DNA of 64,000 bases, from positions 9,197,013-9,261,012 of the forward strand of contig CM073324.1 in the NCBI GenBank assembly GCA_037043015.1. The letters are read 5' to 3'. Under the pieces are notes generated by a model, which was not told where the DNA came from, did not search any database, and saw only the letters and a list, made by a program, of their open reading frames with translations. How positions within the stretch are numbered: position 1 is the first letter of the stretch; every line of letters starts with the position of its first letter. Origin of the DNA: Bryum argenteum (Eukaryota > Streptophyta > Bryopsida > Bryales > Bryaceae). Position numbers and translations under genes: made by a program. Shown piece by piece: positions 44,270 to 57,966 of the stretch.

Positions 44270-45190
44270 TTATGTCAATGTGGTCTCGCACAGAAGCGCA
44301 CTCTGGAAATCGTCCCTGGTATAATATTCCTCCGGGATCGGCACGTCTTGCCAGAGTTTTTTTTCAAAAACATACAAGTCCATGACGGACATGTTCACAT
44401 CGACATCATCAAGCGGAACCTGTACCACAAGAGCTGCTGTATTGGCTCCGATCACAAATGTTTCGTGACTGGAACTGCTGTAGAGAACGAGTTCTGGCGA
44501 GGTGAAGAGAACTTCACGGGTGTTTACCTCGGGATGATACACTCCCTGTAGGACATACATATCCGACCCACTTCCCGGCAGAAGGAACACGTACCGGTAC
44601 AGATCATCGAGTGCCGCAAATGGGACTGGGCGAGGAGCATGAGGAAGCGGTCGGGACCTACACCCGTCAGTCGTGATGTAAGTTCCTGGAAAAGTGAACT
44701 TAACGAGGGCACCTACACGGCCGTCGAGATAGAATTGCCTGAAAACAGGGAAAGGAGGTTCAACCCCAATGACGGAAACGTCTCGGATGACACAATCGTT
44801 ACAGGGGATGGAGCCCCACGAGTTTCGGGTGGAAGAGTAGTGTTCCATCATCATTTGACCGGGTGCTGAGTACCCGACTACGCTGAAAATGTAAGCTCCT
44901 TCCGGCAACGTGTCAACGCGCACGAGCCAGATAAAGCCTGATATGGAAGGAAGCGGAGGGATGTCTGTATTGACCGTATCCGTGAACGGGTTCCACGTGA
45001 TGAGTTCAACTTTCAAAGTCTGAGGATTGACAGACGTGGACTTGATGAAGAAGAAAAGGTCGCCTCCGGAGTGTACAAGCTTCCCGATGTTCGGTGGAAT
45101 GTTTCGAGCCTTCCCGGCAATCTTACCGTCGGCATCGAAGATTGTGATCGTGGAAACTGAATTAGACGCTAATGCAAATGTCTTTGCCAT
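44270..45190 (-). CDS. Predicted beta-propeller-like protein, family copy 2, C-terminally shortened
   Basis: A 306-residue paralog starting MAKTFALASNSVSTITIFDA. It is closest to copy 3 (shared HSGGDLFFFI, DTLPEGAYIF, VFRQFYLDGRVG, CRSRPLPHAPRPVPFAALDD). The frame ends CETTLT then TAA. The following bases still encode a tail related to that of copy 3 (AASKRIFQEVDKEES), so about 20 residues have been lost by a small change that created the stop. The rest is intact. The same upstream motif array is present at 45320-45440. Confidence 0.7.
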   Translation of the reverse strand: MAKTFALASNSVSTITIFDADGKIAGKARNIPPNIGKLVHSGGDLFFFIKSTSVNPQTLKVELITWNPFTDTVNTDIPPLPSISGFIWLVRVDTLPEGAYIFSVVGYSAPGQMMMEHYSSTRNSWGSIPCNDCVIRDVSVIGVEPPFPVFRQFYLDGRVGALVKFTFPGTYITTDGCRSRPLPHAPRPVPFAALDDLYRYVFLLPGSGSDMYVLQGVYHPEVNTREVLFTSPELVLYSSSSHETFVIGANTAALVVQVPLDDVDVNMSVMDLYVFEKKLWQDVPIPEEYYTRDDFQSALLCETTLT

Positions 45191-45314
45191 CGCGATCCAC
45201 CTCAGTCTCTCAACTGAAAATTACAAACGGATTGCACCGATTGCGGAACAGATATGAACTCTGAGAATGCAAATAACGCCAACGAGAATGATAGCAAGAT
45301 ACCCGAAAGTAACA

Positions 45315-45674: not shown

Positions 45675-45682
45675 TTTATAGG
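45675..45682. repeat. Target-site duplication, left, of the 12.3-kb transposon
   Basis: TTTATAGG immediately before the element, repeated exactly at 57959-57966. Confidence 0.88.
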
Positions 45683-45847
45683 CAAGGTTGTTAAACCGGG
45701 CGCGTTTAGGTGGTCGGGGGCAAACCGGGCGGATTAGTTGTCCCGGACAGGCAGGCGTGCCTGACCATCTTGATTCCTGACCATCTTGATTGTAGGAGGT
45801 GAGTAATTTTTCGTGGGTAACAAACTTGTCGTCGTTTTTTTACCTAA

Positions 45848-45873
45848 GGGTGGAAGCATGCTAGGGTGGATCA
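45848..45873 (+). repeat. Subterminal inverted repeat, left
   Basis: Begins GGGTGGAAGCATGCTAGGGT and is the exact inverse of 57815-57840. Such sites commonly bind the transposase. Confidence 0.92.
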
Positions 45874-47188
45874 CCAAAGACATGTACTTGTACCCATGGG
45901 AGTACCCAAAGTCAACGATCTTTTAGCCCAGGAGTACTCAGGGTACTCGATACTATTTAAGGAAAATAACTAGCTGGAAATTACGTGTCAGATACGCGTG
46001 GCCGTATTTTAAGGATTCGCAATGATGACAAAGATTTGAATTGGATTGTAGACCGGCAATCACCGGTAAGTTAGGGCGCGAAACTGGTGGCTGTGGGTCG
46101 CTCCCATTGAGGCCTCGAGGGGAACCGGTGATGCGCGGTCTTTGTCTCGCACCTCGGAGGTTGACTGATTTTGCCTTGCAATTTTTGTTTTGAGGGAGCG
46201 TTGCTGCTTGCCGCTGTTAGGTCGCGCTGATGCTTGCTGATGTTAGGTCGCGCTGATGCTTGCTGATGTCAATTAGGTCGCGCGTGGTTGGAGCCGAAAG
46301 CTGTGAGGGTGTTCATGTAGTGTGTAGGCTGATTTTAGCGAGGGCACGTTTAGCGAGAGAATTTGCGGCTGGACTGTTTGTGAGAGCTTTTTGAGGGTAA
46401 TTTGTGAGGGTTACAGGAGTGTGCGTGAGGGGTGCAACATCTTTGAACGAGGGTTTGAGGGCAGCGTACGAGGGTTGCTGCTTGTTGATGAGGGGTCGCG
46501 CGTGGTTGGAGCAAGTTTCTGTCCGCAATGCTATGGAGGTTTAGGGTTTAGTGTGAGTGGTCGGGTGCGTAGTGTGAGTGGTCGAGTGCGCAGTGTGAGT
46601 GGTTTAGAGTTTAGTGTGAGTGGTCGAGTTTATTGTGAGTGGTCGGATGCGCAGTTTAGTGTAAGTGGTCGGTCTTTGTATTTGTGCGAGAAAAGTCGTG
46701 AGGGTCTTTGTCTGCGAGGTCTTTGTGCGAGGGTCTTTGCGAGGGTCTTTGTGACTATGCGAGGGTGCTGCGAGGATGCCGTAACTGTGCTAGAAAAGTT
46801 GTGAGGGTGCTGTGATTGTGCGAGGGTGCTGCGAGGGTGCCGTAACTGTGTTAGAAAATTTGTGAGGGTGCTCTGACTGTGCGAGGGTGCTGCGAGGGTG
46901 CTGTGACTGTGCGAGGGTTTTGTGAGGGTGCTGCGAGGGTGGTGTGATTGTGCGAGGGTGCTCGGAGGGTGCTCGGAGGGTGTCTTTGATTTGTGCGCGA
47001 GTCTTTGCGAGGGTCTTTGTGGTTGTGCGAGGGTGTTGCGAGGGTGGTGTGATTGTGCGAGGGTGCTCGGAGGTCTTTGTGGATGTGCGAGGTGTCTTTG
47101 CGAGGTCTTTGTGAGTGCACCTCGATCGGTGCTGTGAGGTTTAGAGTTTGTTGGTTTTTTTTTCAGGTAGTTCGAGCGGTCCTCTCCA
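45874..47188. repeat. Transposon left arm with GAGGGTGCT minisatellite
   Basis: There is no gene before 47189. From 46548 to 46670 the phrase agtgtgagtggtcg recurs about six times. From 46690 to 47130 gcgagggtgctg / tgtgactgtgcgagg units recur irregularly, with a few longer blocks near 46800-46900 and 46925-47070. These open long frames on both strands by composition. It probably precedes or forms the 5' leader of the plus-strand transcript. Confidence 0.7.
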
Positions 47189-49735
47189 ATGCCGATGATG
47201 AAGAAAACGCCAGTCCACGGCACGTCTACCGAGCCGACATCTCCCTCGAAGACTGCCTCGAAGTCCGCGAAGTCCGCGAAGGCAAAAGAGAAGCGAGACA
47301 AGGCTGAGAAATTGGAGAAGCCTGCCAGAGAGGTGGAGGTAATCGAGGATGCACCAAGCGAAGAAGATGACGAGTGTATGGAGCTCGTGGACGTGGACGC
47401 TGCCATTTTGAAGTGCAGACCTCCACCGAAACAACTTCTGGTGGACGATTGGATGGAGTTGCACGGGCTGGAGGGGACGGGTTTGAACCCGAAGAGATTC
47501 GGCCCGTCGTTCAAGACGGAGGAGGAGATGAAGAAGGTGTTTGGTCCGAAGAAGGGCAGAAATGGCTACAAGTGGCAAGATTGTGCCATTCCAGAAGTAT
47601 TGGCGAGGGTGAGAAAGCTTCACCCGATAATCTATCAACATGACGCGAAGGACATGCCTACAATTTTGAAGATCAAGTTCGCTGAAGGGATTCAGCATGA
47701 ATTCGTGAATGGCATCGGTTCTATCAACTGGGCTCAGTTTGCTCAGGAGGTGAACAACACTCAGCGCAAAAGGCGATCTGAGACGCGGGAGAGGCTCCAG
47801 TACTGCAAAGACAAGGGAGTCACGAAGGTTAGCAAGGAAGAAATTTTGAAAATCAAGCTCGAGACTCCTACAGCAAGTGCTCAAATTCCTGGTTCTTCTT
47901 CAAAGAAGGTAAATTTGCTTTCATTTCAGTGAGGTATTTAGGGTTCAGGGTGCCGCACAATTTCTTCTCTTTGGCTGATTGCTTGTTTGGCTGATTGCTT
48001 GTTTTTCGGTTTTTTGTTGCAGGATGTTTCAGAAGTATGTGCGAGTAGAATTCCCACCAAGCAAGAAGAAGACCTTGGGCACTGTACTGCAGAGCGAATT
48101 GCGAGAATTTCAAATATTGGGCGAATCTTGAAGAAGGAGATCGCCGTGAGCAAAGCAGGTCAGGCCGCAGCGGCTGAGAAGATCGAAAAAGCAAATGACG
48201 TCAAGAGGGCGTTGGAACAGCATTTGTCGATGTTGGAGGGACAACTTGCTGGGGTCGGCTCAGAGGCCTGGGACGAGGACGTTGAAGCTCAGTTTCAACT
48301 CAAGGTATTCGAGAGGATGAAGAGTACCAACACCGCAAAGTTACATGCAGCGATTTTGGAGACCAAAGTTGCTGAGGCAGAGCTTGAGAACATCGAATTC
48401 AAGCTCAAGCTACAGGAGCAAGAGCTGGCAACCATCACCGAAGAAGCGAATCACCTCAAGTCTGGAGGGCGACCTGCTGGGTTACATCCATGGCCAATGT
48501 TCTACCCTCAACCGTCACGAGAAGAAGTGTCAATAGTGAATGTCTCATTGTGTAGCCTGTGTAGTTTTGGATTTCCCAATCATGACATAGTTGTAGCTAG
48601 TTGTATGCATGTCTACCATCCGTGGTGTGCATATTTAGTTTTTGGCAAAGGATTTAGGTGTGTGCAGAGAAATTGCACTGCATCCGTCCACCCCAGTTGG
48701 TATCAGAGTTTCGGGTGGGGGATTCCTTCTGATGAGCTGGTGCAAGAAGCTGCGAAGCTCGATGCAGATGCGGTTTCCTTGAAGTTTATGCATGAACGAG
48801 AGGAGGCTATCAATCCCAAGCATCAGGAGGATGAGAAGTGTAACAAGGAGAAGGAGCAGCCGATTGGTAAGTGTTTTAGCTAAATTAGTCTACCTTTCAG
48901 ATGACAGTAGTGATTCACTTGTGTATGCTTGTTTGAGTGGCGTATGGGATTTTTTTGACGATGCAAGAGGTTGTAGGTACTATACTCGATGTATTTACTA
49001 GAGGTATTGTAACTTGTTCAGGTATGCTTGGGTCGACTTGTACATTACTAGTCTGGGATGTAGGTATATGCTGGTACATTGTGTATGAAAAAGTATTATT
49101 AGTGCATGTTCAATACTGTGATGTGTAATTTGGGTACCGTGTAGATCTACTGTATGTAGCCTTAGGTACGACGTAGTAGAAGCCGGATGTACTATGTGGT
49201 TACTATTTGTACAATGTTAGTATAGAGGGTAGCATACAATGTACTCATTCGCTCACTTAGCAATTTCGATTTCCTACAGGTACATTAATTCGATAGTCTG
49301 AGTACATGTATAATACATTGGGTATCATAGTATACAATCAATGCGTTGAAGTAGCCATGATGTATCGGTTGAAGTACTTAGGAAAAATATGAGGTACTCA
49401 GATCAGGTTGGTTACAGTACTTAGAAGCAGATTTGTGGTGTAGGTACTTGGGTACTCCGACACAGGCACCACGTACGTACACATTTCGAATGTTTACTTC
49501 AATTATTGTACCTCCATTGACGTTTCATTGGAAGAAGACTACTAAGCTTTTTTATGGGCTTTTTGCAGCGTTGAGGAAGATGAAGATGGTGGCGAATGAG
49601 CTGCAGGTTTCCTTACCAGCTGTCCCTAGTGTGCTTCCGGATCAACCGTTGCAAATCGCCACTCCTACACAAGGCGGCATGTGTTCATACCCCCAGGACC
49701 TGTCTCGGTGTCACCGAAACATCAAGCCATTGTAG
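47189..49735 (+). CDS. Transposon protein with coiled coil and RING-like finger
   Basis: Exons 47189-47908, 48023-48866 and 49569-49735 join with phase agreement (AAG|GTAAAT to TTGCAG|GAT; G|GTAAGT to TTTGCAG|CG). Residues 1-80 are Lys/Glu-rich and disordered. About 85-200 holds a conserved-looking globular part (WMELHGLEGTGLNPKRFGPS; CAIPEVLARVRKLHPIIYQH). About 260-400 is a coiled coil. It is followed by a RING-like cluster, CSLCSFGFPNHDIVVAS, then CMHVYHPWC and CVQRNCTASVHPSWYQSFGW, which suggests an E3-ligase or chromatin-reader role. The last exon runs out of a proline-rich frame near 49676: another frame reads on as VFIPPGPVSVSPKHQAIVGQ, so a one-base lesion is likely. No transposase motif is seen. 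Confidence 0.6.
48884..49568. other. GTAC-rich intron of the transposon gene
   Basis: This intron is unusually dense in gtac, tgtact and agtac words (for example near 48975, 49020, 49130, 49200, 49240, 49310 and 49440). The same bias marks 52619-52765 and 54985-55520 in the element, but not the host DNA outside. Confidence 0.5.
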
Positions 49736-49851
49736 GCCAGCCATCAAAGAATGCAGGTTATGATTTTTCTCTTAGGTGTTGCTCAATGCTAATGTAACTC
49801 TTTATCGTATAAAATACGAGTCTTTGACAATTCTTTTTGTGACTCAGAGGT

Positions 49852-50882
49852 TTGTTGAAGGGCATACCAAGGCAAGAGGAGGATTCTGATGACGATACCG
49901 CTTCTTCTAAAAGAGGTGATGCATCAGACTCCGACGGTGAGTCAGAGGATGGGGGAGAGTCTCCAGTAGGGATGCACGATCAGGGGACATTTGTGCTAGA
50001 GGCAGGACATCCTGAGGTAGTTGGAGCACCTGAAACGCAACTGAAGGCTCTTTTGAAGTCGATACATTGCGCCGCTCCTGAGGTTCACATGGCACCTAGT
50101 ACAGCACCCTGCTCAGCTCTGATGGTGGTCAAATCAGCCTGTGCGTCCAGTGAGGCCTTCGGCAAGGCAGCGCCCTGCTTAGCTCCTACGGAGGTGAAGG
50201 GAGTAAGCTCGCCCATCGAGCCACCGAGCAAGGCAGCACCCTGCTTAGCTCCTACGGAGGTGAAGGGAGTAAGCTCGCCCATCGAGCCACCGAGCAAGGC
50301 AGCACCCTGCTCAGAGTCTGCGGATGTGAACGCAGCGACCACGCCCATTGAGCTGCCGAGCAAGGCAGCACCCTGCTCAGAGTCTGCGGAGGTGAACGCA
50401 GCGACCTCGCCCATTGAGCCGCCGAGCAAGGCAGCTCCGTGCTCAGATCCTGAGCTGGTCACCACACCGTACACGGCCATTGAGCCGAAGCAGACAAGCA
50501 ACGAGCAGGAGAAGACAATTTCAATGGGACTCATGGATTTAGCTCGGGAGTTAGAGGAACACAGTGAGCCGAAGGCCTTGGAGGCTGAATCTAAGGCAGC
50601 GCCCTGCGAGACCCTCTTGGGTGAGATTCGCCCACCCGAGCCGGAGCAATGGACATTGACGTGCCATCTGCGGCACTGACGGAAAGTAAGGACGAGCCGC
50701 AGCAGGTTAGGAAGACAAGGGCTCGAATGACGCCGTTGGATGCGATGGAGAGCGAGAGCCCTGATGGAGTGCCTGAGGAAAGTTCGAAGAGGATGAAGAA
50801 GGTCCTCGAATTGGAGGAGGATGGAAGTCCAAGTCGGAAACGGAGGAAGTCGGTGAGCAAAAAGAAGAGAGGAAAGCGCTAG
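49852..50882 (+). CDS. Repeat-rich transposon protein or C-terminal continuation, frameshifted
   Basis: The first frame, 49852-50680, is acidic (QEEDSDDDTASSKRGDASDS), then carries 4-5 copies of a 22-residue repeat beginning SKAAPC, then leaves frame near 50640. The downstream part in the next frame, to 50882, reads MDIDVPSAALTESKDEPQQ and ends in a basic, nuclear-localisation-like tail (SRKRRKSVSKKKRGKR). The best reading is one protein with a one-base lesion at about 50640, possibly the last exons of the upstream RING-like gene. It has no recognisable domain. Confidence 0.45.
50164..50449 (+). repeat. 66-bp coding repeat (22 residues), about 4.5 copies
   Basis: Units beginning aaggcagc(g/a)ccctgct recur every 66 bases and encode SKAAPC(L/S)-x9-SPIEPP. 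The repeat keeps frame throughout. Confidence 0.92.
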
Positions 50883-51063
50883 ATGCTTTGTCAATTGTGA
50901 ATGATTTTGTTTAGCAATACTGTAGTATAGCATTGCCTTTGTAAATGATGATAAGTCTCTAACTTATTGTCAACTATCTTATTGTGAAATGAAAATCGTG
51001 GTTCACTTTTGTACTTGACCAACGCAGGTGTTGTAGTTTGATGAGAATGACATTACTAGAGGG

Positions 51064-52225
51064 ATGGAGAGCGTGCCTGTAACGGTTGATGTGCCTGTGG
51101 GAGGTTCCGCCCCCATGGCTCCTTTTGTCTATATCCCAACCAGTATTTTGTCTGAGCAGGTTGTAGTAGATAACGAGCGTGAGAGCAGTTGTAAGTGCTA
51201 CGGTCAAGACTGCTCTTTAAACCCGGGTAGTTGTGAATGCTTGCAAAAGAATGGAGGTAGTTGTGCATACGACGCTGCTGGACACTTGCGAGAGGTCGAC
51301 GACAGTAATGGATCCGAGGTAAGCACCATGTTCTATTCGTCACTTTATTTTACTATTTGCAAGGTTCAGAATGGTTTGGATAGAAAATCACGCTCGCCAT
51401 ATTGCTTGTGCATTTTGTGAAGGTTTCCGAATACCAATACTGTCAACCGGGGGAGGGGTGTTACGTGGAAGAGAACACAAAGTCTTGGGACCCTCAGGAC
51501 GGATCTGTAGTTTGCGAGGGACATTATTCTCGAAAATTCATTTTCGAATGCAATTTGACTTGCTTGTGTCATGCCTCATGTCGAAATAGACTTGTCCAGA
51601 AAGGATTGAAATTAAAGTTTAGCCTATTTTGGACTGAGGGTCGGGGTTGGGGTATCAAAACACTTGAACCTATTGCACGTGGACAATTTGTTTTTTCGTA
51701 CCACGGTGAGATTTGCACCAATGCAGAGACAATGAGAAGGACGGAAATGCGGCTGAGTAACGGCTGGTATTCCATGAGTCTTGACGTTGACTGGCGGGCG
51801 GAGGCTGCCAGCAACGATGACACAACTTTGAATATTGATGGACTACGGTATGGTAATGTATCACGTTTTTGAACCACAAAAAGTGAAGATGCGAATCTAT
51901 TGGACATGCCGGTGAGGATAAACTACGGAGACCCACGACTCTATGAAGTTGCTTTTTTTTCACATCGAGAGATCAAGGCTCTTGAAGAACTTACCTGGGT
52001 ATGGGTAATAATTTCCTTGTATACCTCTTTGATGTACATGCTCTTTCATTCTGTAAGCGTATCTTTTGAGTTTTGAGCAAGTTTAATGACGGGTTTGTGA
52101 TTGGCTAACAGGATTATGGTCCACAGTACCAGGGGAGAGGAGCGCTCAATGGGCCCTGTTTGTGTGGAAGTTTGTTATGTAGGAATCCACCCAGCAAGAG
52201 GAGTTTGGGTGTAGGAAGTAGCTGA
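51064..52225 (+). CDS. SUV39-type SET-domain histone-lysine methyltransferase on the transposon
   Basis: Members of this family methylate histone H3 lysine 9. Exons 51064-51318, 51423-51998 and 52112-52225 join in phase (GAG|GTAAGC to TGAAG|GTT; TGG|GTATGG to AACAG|GAT), about 314 residues. Exon 1 ends in a pre-SET zinc cluster (CKCYGQDCSLNPGSCECL, CAYD). Exon 2 continues it (CNLTCLCHASCRNRLVQKG) and enters the SET domain (RGWGIKTLEPIARGQFVFSY, HGEI). The last exon gives DYG and the post-SET CLCGSLLC. At 51868-51884, exactly at the cofactor-binding R-F-x-N-H region, a missing T and an extra A throw about 12 bases out of frame and create TGA at 51870. Both sides are otherwise in register, and exon 2 is 576 bases, divisible by three. 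As it stands the product is truncated. No chromo or SRA domain is visible. Confidence 0.82.
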
Positions 52226-52425
52226 GACCACGGAGGATAGGAGCGCTCAATGGGCCCTGTTTGTGTGGAAGTTTGTTATGTAGGAATCCACCCAGCAAGA
52301 GGAGTTTGGGTGTAGGAAGTAGCTGAGACCTTGTTTGTGAGGAGCGCTCAATGGGCCCTATTTGTGAGGAAGTTTGTTATGTAGAAAAATACCCAGCCAT
52401 AGGAATTCAGATGTAGTTCATGTAT
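52140..52425. repeat. 101-bp tandem repeat containing the post-SET exon, three copies
   Basis: The unit starting gagcgctcaatgggccctgt occurs at 52140, 52241 and 52342. Each unit repeats the coding bases for CLCGSLLC and part of the 3' sequence. The first two are nearly identical; the third is more diverged and shorter. Confidence 0.95.
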
Positions 52426-52618
52426 GAAGTGCATGAGACGTATGTACCATTTCACTAGGCCATTTTTGTGTCACAGGCGCCTGGTTGATGATAATGGAAT
52501 TTTTGGCCATCACTTATCATGTTCTGTTTATCAAAATCTAATGCTCCTGCTCAATGGTGCCAGATGTTGTAAAATTGCACAATTGTGAAAATGAAACATC
52601 GATTAACTCTGAAAACTG

Positions 52619-52765
52619 GTATGTACTTCGAGTACTTAATAATACCATTGCGTTAAGTACCAGATGGTATGTACTTCGAGTACTGACTAATGCCATTGCG
52701 TTAAGTAGCAGATGTTATGTACTTCGAATACTAAACAATACCATTGGGGACTTGAGAATGCCAGA
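52619..52765. repeat. 48-bp tandem repeat, three copies
   Basis: Units beginning atgtacttcgagtact at 52621, 52669 and 52717, with aataccattg and cgttaagta in common. It lies between the ends of the two convergent transposon genes. Confidence 0.93.
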
Positions 52766-52958
52766 CTTCATGCTTAAGTGTTATTCCCGTTACACACTGA
52801 TTGGCCAAAGTGTAGTAATTAGCTTCCAAAACATGCCAATGGTTGGAGAAAAGGTGTCAAGCCTTTACTAACATGTAAACAAGCCCTAAGGAAGCTCAAT
52901 GTGACTGTATTCAAAATACAATAAAAATACAAGATGCCATATGAACGGATTGTTGCAA

Positions 52959-55931
52959 TCAACCCATCACCTCATCTGTTGCCCACCACGCAGATAGGAC
53001 TTGTTGTATCATTTCTAGTGTATCACTTGTCATCTTGTAAACCGCCATACCACCCCTAACTGTATGTGAAGCTAATATCATTGGGAATTTTACAGCCCGT
53101 ACATGACGTGCAAAAATATGGGCCACCGGGTGTGCATCCAGGTACAAATATGTGCTGGACCCTCTTTGGGACTTCTGATAGTAAGTGCCAGCCACAACAT
53201 AATCCCCCCTTTGAAACTCCTCTCCCCATGGGCAAACGAAATCCTCTTGAACCTTATACTTGGACTTTGTACATTGCAGCACGTAGAAGTCAACTCCTTC
53301 CTCATTGCCATCTTCTGCTGGAATCATGAAGTTGTCACCTACTTGTAAAAGGGCTGCGTTAGAGTCGTCAACACCACCCGCATGTAGCCAAGTCTCTGGA
53401 TCATCATGGCTCTGGATTTGCTCCTGCACAGCTACCACGTTTGTTGGCCTAAGGCGGACTACACGCCAAGGTGCTACATATGAATTCTGTTCACAGTTTT
53501 GCGACTCGTGGTTAATACATGGAGCACAGAAACATGACAAATCACGAACCAAGAGAAGGGTAGGATCAGTCTGCGAACACCCCAATATACTATGGAATTG
53601 CCGGGACTCTGGAATGGTTTTGCACTTCCACTCATTCACTCTATCCACATCTCCAATGCCAATATGCCAAAACTCTCTATATATGGGCACTTCCTTTGCA
53701 GCATCTGAGGAACTCAAAACACGATGGCTGAACTTCGACTTCAAAAAATCTACACATTGTTGTGCATTGGCTAATTCGTCCTCCGGGTCTTTGGATTTGA
53801 TGCGTGCGTAATGCCCTCTTTGCAACCGCTCCACTCCGTCCCACTCTCCTGCAGCCCAACAATCACGTGCCAACGGAGGTCAATATTAGATTTTAATACC
53901 CTAAATCATGCTAAATGGTCGGAAAAATTACCTTTTCCATGGCCACTACCAAAGTAATTCCATCTCATGGTGCAACCCGTGAGGCCCGGATACCGTGCCA
54001 CAAAATACATAGCTCGGGATCCTTTGAATTGGGTCACGCATCCGTCGCTGAGACCCAATGCTCGGTGGGTTTGTAACTGCGGATCCAACCACTTCCAAAG
54101 GTGCAAAAGGAGACAATGTTGTACAAATAACGAATCATGTTTCTTGTCATCACTAATATAATAGTGAGTGTGCTTGATTATACCGCATTCCTCACCTTCT
54201 TCTCGGTGGTGCCTTGAACAATGTAATGTGAACAAGGATCGTTATAGATGTACTAAACCAATGCATGCTTTGAACCTCATTTTGAATTGCAAAAGTATAA
54301 TTTTCTGCATAATCTATGTGAGAGATTAACACACCATGAGGCACATTCTCCATCATTTTCCTACATTCAGTGTCTTGCCACGATGCAACAAAGTTGTGAG
54401 TGACAAATTCTTGCATTTTTTTCTGGAAATAAGCTACAAACTCACCTGGAGATGTTTCCTTGAACACCTCTGTGATGCGCTTCTTTTCATAACCTGTTTC
54501 TTCATGGAGACCAACAACCTTCATTTCAAAGCATCTCCACTTGACCAAGAGATCAGTAGCTACAGAGCACTCCTGAGGACAGAACTTCACTTTTTTCACA
54601 CCACAAGATGCGCATTCACCCATTAAGCAACTAAGTTTATGCCACTTATCAAGGTCCCCCTTAGGACAAACACAAGCTTTCCATAGTGTTGAGAGACGGT
54701 CGAACGTATTTGTCGTAGCAAGACATTCATCTTCTGCAATACCACATACCCCACATCCGCATGTACAGCCCATATGACAATGACTCTCCTTTGAGGTATC
54801 TCTAAAACCATTTAGAGCTTCCCTTAACAGGTCTACCTCGACATGATTCACACAACAACAACTATTTTGATCTTTGAGAGTTTTTACATACCAAGGCTTG
54901 AGATACTCGAAGGCTCTTTGTCTTATGCGACACTCAGGATGTGCTTCCTTGAAACCTATAAACAATTGGGCCTGGCACATAGTATCCAGATCAGAGTTAG
55001 TACATCTGCAGCACCATATTTAGTACTTGACACAAACAAAGTATATTCGGTACACAGTGCACATGATCATGTGTATACATCCTGTATGAAAGACTACTCC
55101 AAGTACTGAAGTACATATGAACCCATGTAATGCACAATCTGACTGACAATTTAGTACAACGAACGACAGTACCATTACCTTATATACCAACTTGGACTTG
55201 TGTATTACAAAACGTAATTTGAGTACTTAGTTTTCTACCTTCTATACTGAACCCACGACCCAACTGTACCACGAATACGCTGAAGTCACACGTTGTCTAC
55301 TCAGTATACTTAGAACTGTATGTCCAGCACATCAAAAGTAAACTACATACAAGAACTTAATGACAATTTGTACCTTTACTACCATGCCAATGAATTGATT
55401 ACTTCTACAAGTACCATGTGCCACTCAGTTGACTTATGAGTATTTATGTACGCATAAAACCGCATGAGTACCTTGCTTCAATCCACCGAAAGTAATGGGT
55501 AACTAGCTTACCTTTCTACTTGTACATATGAACAAACACCGAACTTAGCTTATAACCCGTGAGTCCAAAGCCAAGCCTTGAAAGAACATAAAGAATCATT
55601 CAATTACACAAAGAATATAGTAAACATCGAACCCGAGTGTCGTCATGAGGTAGTGAGTAGCATGCACAACATATTCATTCCTCCTCGTGCGACGCCGTGT
55701 CACATCTTTCTTGTTGGGTGAGACACGAGATCTCCCATGCCACCAAGCTCGCACAGCCTCCTTCACGTAATCGACAAACCAAAGACGCTTCGACCGCTCC
55801 AAAAGTTTGTCTCGCTCTTGAACGTTGAAAGAGCCACTTCTCCTTTCTATAGCGTTCGAGAATATTTCGGGATGCACCGCACACCAAAGTGACATCAACA
55901 CCATATTCAATCGAATACCATAATCATTCAA
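52959..55931 (-). CDS. Large transposase-like protein of the 12.3-kb element
   Basis: I infer exons of about 55931-55626, 54971-53932 and 53848-52959. Exon 1 carries VSPNKKDVTRRRTRRNEYVV and HATHYL. The next begins AQLFIGFKEAHPECRIRQRA followed by LKPWYVK, then zinc-binding clusters (CHMGCTCGCGVCG; CLMGECASCG), HIDYAENYTFAIQNEVQSMH, YYISDDKKHDSLFVQHC and SDGCVTQFKGSRAMYFVARY. The last intron (GAAAAG|GTAATT to CTGCAG|GAGAG) splits a motif that becomes GSGHGKGEWDGVERLQRG when joined. The order DY(A/S)ENY, then SDG-x-QFK, then GHGKG-x2-DG is that of a widespread uncharacterised family I associate with transposons. The acidic residues could form an RNase H-like active site. A frame change near 54195, between HITLFKAPP and EEGEECGII, has no splice signal and is probably a lesion. 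The start is not established. Confidence 0.65.
54981..55595. other. GTAC-rich intron of the minus-strand transposon gene
   Basis: Non-coding DNA dense in gtac/agtac/gtact words, like 48884-49568. It includes a long intron between exons 1 and 2 of the transposase-like gene. Confidence 0.5.
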
Positions 55932-57814
55932 TCAACACCATAATCAAGCCACATGGAGTTCACCAAGACACAACAATGATTGACAAATTGTTGCATTAAA
56001 ACTCAACTTTATTCCAATATTGACGGACAATCAAGTAAACTCTCAAACTTAAGAAGACACGAGACACTTGCGCCCTCACTTCCACACTAACAAGAGGTAT
56101 GTTGACCAAGTGCGAGAAATTCAAGAAGACACCTCACTCCTCGAAATTGAGACATAAACCCTAAACCGTGATAAACAATCTAGTCTCAACACGATCCGAT
56201 CTACACGATAGAAAAACCGCATTACTCGACGGCGGGACGAGAAGGTAGGCAACAACTCAAACACCGGCGTAATGGGAGTGATTTGGTGTACCCGCAAGAC
56301 CCTAGAAAGAGATCGCCTCGATGAAGTGCCGTCAATAACGGCCGCATCCGAAGAACCCCTTTCCGTGCAAGGAAATTCCTTGATCGCACACCCTTGATCG
56401 CTTGAAGCTCGGTAGCGGTAACTCTTAACAAACGAGTAGATCGATTTCGCCTCGAGCACATGGATAATACTGCGGGAGCATGGGAGTTATCCTTGTGTGA
56501 TTCAAGATCTTCTCGATGACAATGCTTTTACAAGATGTTGTCTCGCAATCTTGGAGCTCCGACATGATGCAGAGCGCTAGCTTGTTCGACTTCAAGGTGC
56601 TCAACCGCTCAACGATTCCACCCGATTCCACCGAACTTTCCTCAGGCAGTTGAAGATTTTGAATATTGCAATTTCGCGTAGCTATCCTCGCCCGTATGCT
56701 CGCATTCTCGATCGCGAGCCTTCGCTAAAGCCGCGTTTCACTTGACCCAGCATTGCGGCGGCAGCTCGTGCTTCCGGACCAGGTCGAATAATTCCAAGTC
56801 GACGCCGCTGCCGATTCCGTGCGTTACCCATCACCGAGTTCCACACAATTCTTCCACACCGAGTTCCACACAATTCTTCCACACCGAATTCTTCCACACC
56901 GAGTTCCACACCGAATCCGATGACAACCAAGTAACGTTGACCAGTGGCAACCCACCTCAACCCTAAACAACTAGCGGAAAATTGATTCACTGAATTCGAA
57001 CTCCACCTAGACGTTCCGGGAGAGGCCGAGACACTAACGCAACCCTAAACAAGGTCGACACGAAAGGCGTAGAATCAACGCGCGGGGACGAGGGAGGGCC
57101 GTCAACCCTAGAAACAAAACCGCTCATTTCGGAGAATGAATTTGGCGCTCCATCGGATCTCTCCAGCAATGTTTCGAAATGCGTGCAAGTTTGACAAAGC
57201 CGGCACCTTTACAGCCCTGACATCGTGGCCAGTTACTGAAAACAGCTCTCCCGAAGTACTTTAAGTACAAGAGAGTACCAGAGGGCGGATTTCTCTGAAA
57301 AATTTCCACTTCCTGCTAGACAGTTTTCCCGCCAAAAAACTGCTGTTCGTACCCACCCCCATCTGCATCTCTGCATTATCTCCACGACTGCAAAAAAAAA
57401 AAACAAAAAATTTTCATTTTTGACCACCCTCAACCATGTCAAAGTTTTGGCTATTTGACCAATAAAGAACGCAATGTTAGAACATGTTTTTGGGAAGTAA
57501 TGATACAACATGTAGAGCATTTGAAGGTGCTCTCTTTGTGTATATAATTTTTGGAGTACTTTGGAACTTAATTTATATCAAACTTGAGTACTTTGCGATT
57601 TTTTGGCAGCCAGTAACGTACTTTTCTGAAACTATAGATTGGCAAATTACCATATGTTGCGAATGTTTTTGCAAAAAATTGTTTAGTGATTTGCAAGCAT
57701 AACCACCTCTTCTACCTATATCTACAAAAACATTAGTACTTAAGGATGTGTGATGATCTAGAACGGCGATTGAACAAGCAAAGGTACAGGAATTAGGGGG
57801 CGTAACGTACTTTT
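55932..57814. other. Transposon right arm, upstream of the transposase-like gene
   Basis: This should hold the 5' exons and promoter of the minus-strand gene. Small minus-strand frames at 56121-56459 and 56682-56990 have no recognisable product. Around 56840-56910 cacaccgagttccacacaat recurs about four times as a short imperfect tandem repeat. Confidence 0.4.
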
Positions 57815-57840
57815 TGATCCACCCTAGCATGCTTCCACCC
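57815..57840 (-). repeat. Subterminal inverted repeat, right
   Basis: Exact inverse of 45848-45873, beginning TGATCCACCCTAGCATGCTT on the plus strand. Confidence 0.92.
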
Positions 57841-57958
57841 CTAAACTAAAAGTAAACAGCCATTTGACCCTATGTCCCTATCGGGCGAGTGAGAGCTCAA
57901 TCGGGCGGCAAATCGGGCAGGCAGGCGGCGTGCCTGCCTGGTTCAAATGTCAACCTTG

Positions 57959-57966
57959 TTTATAGG
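57959..57966. repeat. Target-site duplication, right, of the 12.3-kb transposon
   Basis: TTTATAGG, an exact copy of 45675-45682. The sequence that follows (tggtcattttgtaattcaat) continues duplication unit 2. Confidence 0.88.

Follow-up and report, generated by a model that had tools for sequence, protein, structure and literature searches.

A moss DNA transposon family with a SUVR-type SET-domain gene as long-standing cargo

We analyze a 64,000-nucleotide stretch of the genome of the moss Bryum argenteum (NCBI GenBank assembly GCA_037043015.1, contig CM073324.1; hereafter "the window", C4:9197013-9261012 in our contig names), which holds a DNA transposon of 11,993 bp that carries a gene for a SET-domain histone methyltransferase. 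Comparison with further copies in the same genome (258.8 Mb, 25 contigs searched) leads us to read the element as a broken-SET copy of a cut-and-paste transposon with a three-aspartate (D-D-D) transposase, whose lineage has long carried a SUVR-type SET gene, most likely for self-silencing. We assign this reading as a whole a probability of roughly 0.55.

Methyltransferases of histone H3 lysine 9 (H3K9) are a main host tool against transposons, and the parasite described here appears to retain a piece of the silencing machinery normally turned on parasites. With a transposon whose own methyltransferase of H3K9 type is under selection, one can test whether mobile elements write heterochromatin in order to regulate or target themselves, and do not only escape it; loci of the family without SET offer a natural control.

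The SET gene as cargo of the family

When the two SET exons are used as query, the genome returns 181 matches, the best 150 of which we used; one transposase exon returns at least 140 matches, the RING-like exon of the element's forward gene at least 129, and the Pre-SET family at least 129. The SET loci were widened by a distant SET query and the Pre-SET search and then merged. Among the matches listed, a SET or Pre-SET locus lies no farther than 25 kb from 109 of 139 transposase loci and no farther than 6 kb from 101 of them, with a median gap of 2.6 kb; the chance expectation is about 0.03 SET loci per transposase, estimated from 56 rows of the distant SET query entered by hand. In 109/109 pairs the partner is on the other strand and always to the same side of the transposase. 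Grouped by transposase identity to the query, pairing is seen at 36/41 loci with 70% or more, 32/39 at 60-70%, 14/17 at 53-60%, 27/39 at 45-53% and 0/3 below 45%. An early count, in which 9/42 transposases below 53% had a SET, had hinted at a SET-free ancestral clade; the hint vanished with the distant SET query and the Pre-SET search, which left the three loci below 45% without SET. From the side of the methyltransferase, 103 of 129 Pre-SET matches have a transposase match of the family no more than 12 kb away or a forward-gene match of the family no more than 8 kb away; counts of Pre-SET and SET genes in such genomes are mostly counts of transposon copies.

The two genes have also diverged together. 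For the 42 elements among 52 sampled SET loci whose transposase is in the sample too, protein distances of SET and transposase correlate with a Mantel r of 0.884, a value reached by none of 2000 label shuffles (highest, 0.244). Nearest neighbours are concordant in 28/42 elements, and the main groups are common to both trees, which disagree on where L015, the L084/L085 pair and the long branch L101 belong. Nei-Gojobori codon counting over non-independent pairs, with stop-containing codons skipped, gives median ratios of nonsynonymous to synonymous divergence (dN/dS) for SET exon B of 0.21 (37 pairs, dS 0.1-0.3), 0.19 (7 pairs, 0.3-0.6) and 0.18 (28 pairs, 0.6-1.5); for the transposase, the medians are 0.31 (28 pairs, dS 0.02-0.1), 0.29 (13 pairs, 0.1-0.3) and 0.12 (136 pairs, 0.6-1.5). 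At about 0.2 among diverged copies, these codon comparisons show the main SET exon (B) to be under purifying selection. Most copies have the gene at one position and in one orientation, it has diverged in step with the transposase, and selection on it is purifying; sequence comparison among the copies thereby shows it to be a long-standing cargo of the transposon lineage in the genome searched.

The original prediction, made from the letters of the window, held that the SET gene was original cargo and not a passenger, and that copies with the same ends would share it; the first claim is now strongly supported, and a SET match is found in 7/7 same-end copies, although that of the window copy is broken and that of the copy at C9:4.19M is partial. 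The two outcomes named as pointing the other way, same-end copies without SET and a SET that clusters with one host gene, were not observed, 17 transposon SETs being only 43-51% identical to the host gene. This distance, which argues against a recent capture of that gene, joins the shared SET match, the fixed arrangement in 109/109 pairs and the co-divergence in refuting a one-off capture of a host SUVR gene or its later nested insertion into the window copy, even though the SET is of host SUVR type and the ends of the window copy had looked like those of a single composite element.

The earlier label of a SUV39-type enzyme can be refined to a SUVR-type SET. In a tree of hand-chosen representatives of the 52 sampled loci plus L127 (L015 was dropped as too short), 22 transposon SETs and the host gene L125 stand on one side of a branch with support of 99/99, and a Ceratopteris SUVH-type protein, two SUVR5-type proteins and EHMT2 on the other; the program warned that some long branches meet. 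We take the host gene, which lies at C2:8747200-8748800 without element neighbours, to be of SUVR1/2/4 type by its motifs. BLAST of an open sibling copy gives 187 bits to the host gene versus 101-106 to SUVH- and SUVR5-type proteins; the host gene is itself 46% identical to EHMT2 over 106 columns, so that identity alone does not separate the groups. The alignments neither establish nor exclude one clade of transposon SETs that leaves out the host gene: in approximately unbiased (AU) tests p-AU was 0.244 with 17 transposon rows and 0.462 with 23 (L015 then dropped), both without the very long branch L101, and in a tree with distant outgroups (24 transposon rows) the transposon SETs split with weak support.

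Since the 522-amino-acid (aa) N-terminal model of the forward gene has no Pfam match to the WIYLD domain, we class the transposon protein by its SET type only, not as a SUVR protein. Protein searches returned 6 unnamed proteins only for the SET exons and 4 matches for an 1150-aa query, none named as a RING-SET protein. These four are an MBD-SET protein, a Ceratopteris protein classed here as SUVH for its PF02182 (SRA) domain, a SUVR5-like protein of Camellia and, from Lonicera, an unnamed protein whose domains are mostly shared with it.

Borders of the transposon and the element that hosts it

The element had been drawn at 45683..57958 (12.3 kb), borders that do not hold for the SET transposon, whose true extent is 45848-57840. 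In a genome search with 321 bp of the left end, six near-identical relatives align only from base 169 of the query, which is window position 45848, at 97-99% identity; 32 other matches are confined to the outer 148 bp or part of it (75-87%) and two further ones to the inner part (82-83%). At the right end, the six relatives align at 98-100% up to 57840 or one base beyond. All seven near-identical copies, the window copy included, start and finish with GGGTGGAAGCATGC, and their printed flanks, judged by eye, give an exact 4-bp target duplication in each (CTAA, GTGC, TGTC, CACC, TTTT, CGGT and TGAC).

The perfect 26-bp inverted repeat of the original prediction is present, at 45848..45873 on the forward strand (GGGTGGAAGCATGCTAGGGTGGATCA) and 57815..57840 on the reverse strand, inside 29-nt arms that are 97% identical. 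It is the true terminus of the SET transposon, however, and not "subterminal". Next to it stands the CTAA duplication, at 45844..45847 and, from the flank comparison, 57841..57844. The inverse ends CAAGGTTG at 45683 and 57958 and the 8-bp duplication TTTATAGG at 45675..45682 and 57959..57966 were likewise read correctly from the sequence but belong to a miniature inverted-repeat transposable element (MITE), whose left and right parts lie at 45683..45847 and 57845..57958 (both forward). A MITE copy elsewhere in the genome (L076), with its own 8-bp duplication TCCCCAGC, aligns over the window's joined MITE flanks with a single CTAA. Since the relatives' homology starts and stops at the inner ends, and L076 reads across the junction with one CTAA, these alignments identify the outer CAAGGTTG pieces as an older short MITE into which the SET transposon jumped; the relatives' match limits, the 4-bp duplications and L076 together rule out the outer borders as its ends.

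The MITE family with CAAGGTTG ends includes L008 and L076, and 8-bp duplications are seen in the window copy and in L076. Adjoining the insertion is a 316-aa open frame (44270-45220, reverse strand) with no Pfam match above cut-off, possibly a host gene. Within 45848-57840 the motif AGTAC/GTACT is about threefold enriched (56 observed versus 18 expected; elsewhere in the window 79 versus 62), and is a possible candidate for a dispersed binding motif. At C9:3763946-3793578, four right-end matches about 9.8 kb apart, with no SET or transposase match within 20 kb, are perhaps a tandem array of a non-autonomous derivative.

Genes of the window copy and the transposase lineage

As predicted, the element carries a gene with pre-SET, SET and post-SET parts, which matches the Pfam pre-SET (2.7e-11) and SET (9.3e-6) families. 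Exon A, the pre-SET start (51028..51318, forward; Pfam and sibling alignment), has an in-frame TAG in place of TGG at 51034-51036 that is absent from six aligned relatives. Exon B, with the remaining pre-SET and the SET domain (51423..51998, forward; Pfam, siblings and a best PDB sequence match to SETMAR), contains small length changes that break the frame before the NHxC motif; the frame is intact there in siblings L010-L014, and the exon is open as far as ELTW in L010, L012 and L014. Exon C (52112..52222, forward) carries DYG and the post-SET CxCxxxxC, read from the sequence with sibling L012 as support. The linker upstream has an additional frame break, which L012, L014 and L015 read through. 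The window copy's own SET gene is thus broken as aligned, and open siblings exist; L012 matches SET at 2.3e-17 and Pre-SET at 7.6e-15, and its CLCGSLLCR following DYG is a post-SET motif. Three 101-bp direct repeats at 52134-52436 (95% and 72% identical to the first) duplicate the region of the last SET exon.

Upstream on the same strand, our splice model has an exon 1 at 47189..47908 (an open reading frame), an exon 2 at 48023..48868 with a coiled-coil-like part and a RING-like Cys/His module at about 48548-48700, and a linker of 22-aa repeats with a basic tail at 49847..50852 (open reading frames and sibling alignment), whose 66-bp tandem units occupy 50102-50431 and whose frame is broken in the window copy. 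The donor GTGAGC after the linker and the acceptor GCAG before the SET exon are conserved in the five siblings L010-L014 and in the more distant L015 (L013 is disrupted further upstream), and in L012 the linker joins SET in phase 0 and stays open through post-SET. From this conservation and the open join we infer one forward gene, modelled without transcripts, that would encode the coiled-coil/RING-like part, the repeats and SET. Unspliced read-through past the linker donor ends in the conserved basic tail, perhaps an alternative form that would terminate before SET. The RING-like protein of the original prediction fares well in its cysteine and histidine pattern (CxxC, CxH, HxxC, C, C), kept in 5/5 aligned copies, and less well in Pfam, where all RING scores are below cut-offs (best 7.7e-4).

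The large transposase-like gene predicted on the strand opposite the SET gene is present. It comprises a likely N-terminal exon at 55599..55931 (an open reading frame that resembles by eye the upstream open reading frame of L079), an exon with the first aspartate of the motif (HIDYAENY; 54195..55019), a part with the second (SDGC) and HGKG (53909..54241) and the C-terminal half (52962..53879), all on the reverse strand. Its 91 relatives in the protein collection include sequences from the moss Ceratodon purpureus, the liverwort Calypogeia fissa and a EukProt entry. An alignment of 39 sequences has no change at D222, D272, D277 and D349, and at least 90% of the sequences keep D307 of the SDGC motif; we take D222, D307 and D349 as the catalytic triad, the third residue being not proven. 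No Pfam family was matched by more than one of the 39 sequences, the transposase query found no PDB chain at E up to 1, and searches of viral_contigs and genome_contigs confirmed no viral or bacterial/archaeal homologue.

Sola, a superfamily reportedly described by Bao et al. in 2009, makes a 4-bp duplication and has a D-D-D transposase; our element resembles it in the duplication (7/7 copies) and in its putative D-D-D triad. Harbinger elements make a 3-bp TWA duplication and MuDR/MULE elements one of 8-9 bp. We reject Harbinger, HarbingerS included, on the varied 4-bp duplications and the lack of a Harbinger Pfam match in the 39 transposases, and MuDR/MULE on the 4-bp duplication and the lack of a MULE transposase match in the same set. 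KDZ/Zisupton, which make an 8-bp duplication according to the accessible text of PMC12730594, are rejected as well, since the SET transposon duplicates 4 bp and the 8-bp duplication here belongs to the MITE. The same text gives 5'-CA..TG-3' termini in most cases for the CMCT clade including Lanisha, whereas those of the SET transposon are GGG..CCC; the CMCT-type C(2)C and H(3-4)H are not seen between D307 and D349, and a CxCxxC occurs further on. Tentatively, and with rather more doubt than confidence, we propose that the family is an undescribed bryophyte DNA-transposon superfamily in which, since before its diversification in the genome searched, a SUVR-type H3K9 methyltransferase spliced to a RING-like ubiquitin-ligase module has been a near-universal working part. 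The element would then be a self-contained, mobile writer of heterochromatin, present in several-fold more copies than the host's own genes of this kind.

Possible roles and comparison with known systems

Under self-silencing, either the transposase or the RING-like part would bring the SET protein to the chromatin of the element, where it would methylate H3K9, giving a silent state that could be dosed and reversed and that would limit host damage between bursts. The RING-like part could tune it through ubiquitin, as with Arabidopsis SUVR4; this enzyme takes H3K9me1 onward and ubiquitin alters its product, according to the accessible text of a review (PMC7218100), and a role for the RING-like part is therefore possible. 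Self-limitation by reversible silencing, judged as a mechanism on its own, is an explanation that we infer at slightly less than even odds and favour over the three alternatives below.

Several observations weigh against this interpretation. Arabidopsis SUVR2 retains the catalytic H and C yet is inactive in vitro (PMC4260354, accessible text), so a SET sequence is no proof of activity, and a self-silencer acting in trans should readily give way to cheaters. Median dN/dS in SET exon B is 0.46 for the closest pairs (18 pairs, dS 0.02-0.1), as if recent copies decayed freely. For exon A the ratio is 0.36 (36 pairs, dS 0.02-0.1), 0.77 (3 pairs, 0.1-0.3), 0.59 (1 pair, 0.3-0.6) and 0.26 (40 pairs, 0.6-1.5), the two middle values suggesting that this exon is either less constrained or too thinly sampled at these distances. 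No SET was found at 30 of the 139 transposase loci among the matches listed. Six of the transposases without a SET match, at 63-65% identity (C3:26.89M, C4:25.08M, C1:15.72M, C8:12.74M, C5:21.84M and C8:3.70M), have a stop-free matched stretch and, from their similar identities and frames, form an apparent subfamily. The one inspected (L130, C4:25076900-25079600) has the basic tail and then, at the usual spacing, a short segment similar by eye to the beginning of the pre-SET, with nothing SET-like after it; the absence is probably a secondary loss. As these loci keep stop-free transposase stretches, they suggest that SET is not strictly required for multiplying or moving. Finally, of 40 right ends found in the genome, 27 lack both genes within 20 kb, as non-autonomous or decayed copies should; in the same range a SET is present at 11 and a transposase at 12.

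A SUVR-type enzyme might instead shift local H3K9 methylation to a state poorly read by the host loop of H3K9me2 and DNA methylation, or compete with host SUVH and SUVR proteins, so that the element escapes; it would then be the histone equivalent of VANC or of the TET/JBP enzymes that some transposons carry. The accessible text of PMC12730594 interprets transposon-encoded chromatin factors as counteracting silencing, SUVR4 works on H3K9me1 with a ubiquitin-dependent product (PMC7218100), and the element has a RING-like partner; the enzyme class is, however, linked to silencing in Arabidopsis in the accessible texts of PMC7218100 and PMC4260354, and we consider such an escape unlikely, though deserving real weight. 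It is unlikely, too, that the SET protein or its product serves the integration complex, steering insertions to heterochromatin or marking it as a safe harbour: SET-less loci seem to have multiplied without it, against which stand the position of the window copy inside another mobile element and the strict pairing and co-divergence of SET with the transposase. A catalytically dead scaffold, with the SET fold kept for binding proteins or histones and not for methylation, has its precedent in SUVR2 (PMC4260354). We think it quite improbable, since an open frame with GWG, NHxC and an ELTW-type motif is found at 18 of 32 sampled SET loci; the remaining 14 are broken or truncated, have an altered motif or are differently spliced.

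The moss element can be set beside several known systems. Primate SETMAR, like it, unites SET and transposase in one genomic unit, but it is a host gene fused to a domesticated transposase and not the cargo of a mobile element. Plant SUVR1/2/4 group with the transposon SETs at 99/99 through the host SUVR-type gene; the transposon protein differs in having a RING-like part and repeats in place of a WIYLD match, and in being multicopy and mobile. The statement that no autonomous plant element with such cargo was known holds for plants within the literature searched (titles and abstract openings, partly top-ranked results only), where we found no plant transposon with a SET gene. It does not extend to oomycetes, for which the accessible text of PMC12730594 cites HarbingerS and SET-bearing MuDR elements of Phytophthora (Kojima and Jurka 2014), and SET cargo in DNA transposons is therefore an already known kind. 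Both carry a SET histone methyltransferase gene as the moss element does; the moss element has another transposase, a 4-bp duplication, a plant host, a RING-like partner and, perhaps as a further difference, a SUVR-type SET. Fungal transposons with TET/JBP genes (KDZ, Plavaka, IS3EU and others, in the same text) likewise carry a chromatin- or DNA-modifying enzyme, there a dioxygenase that acts on DNA and has passed between superfamilies, whereas the moss SET is one enzyme co-diverged with one transposase lineage. Relative to known SET cargo, the moss family is new in its transposase lineage, in the SUVR type of its SET, in having a plant host and a RING-like partner, and in the long co-divergence of SET and transposase.

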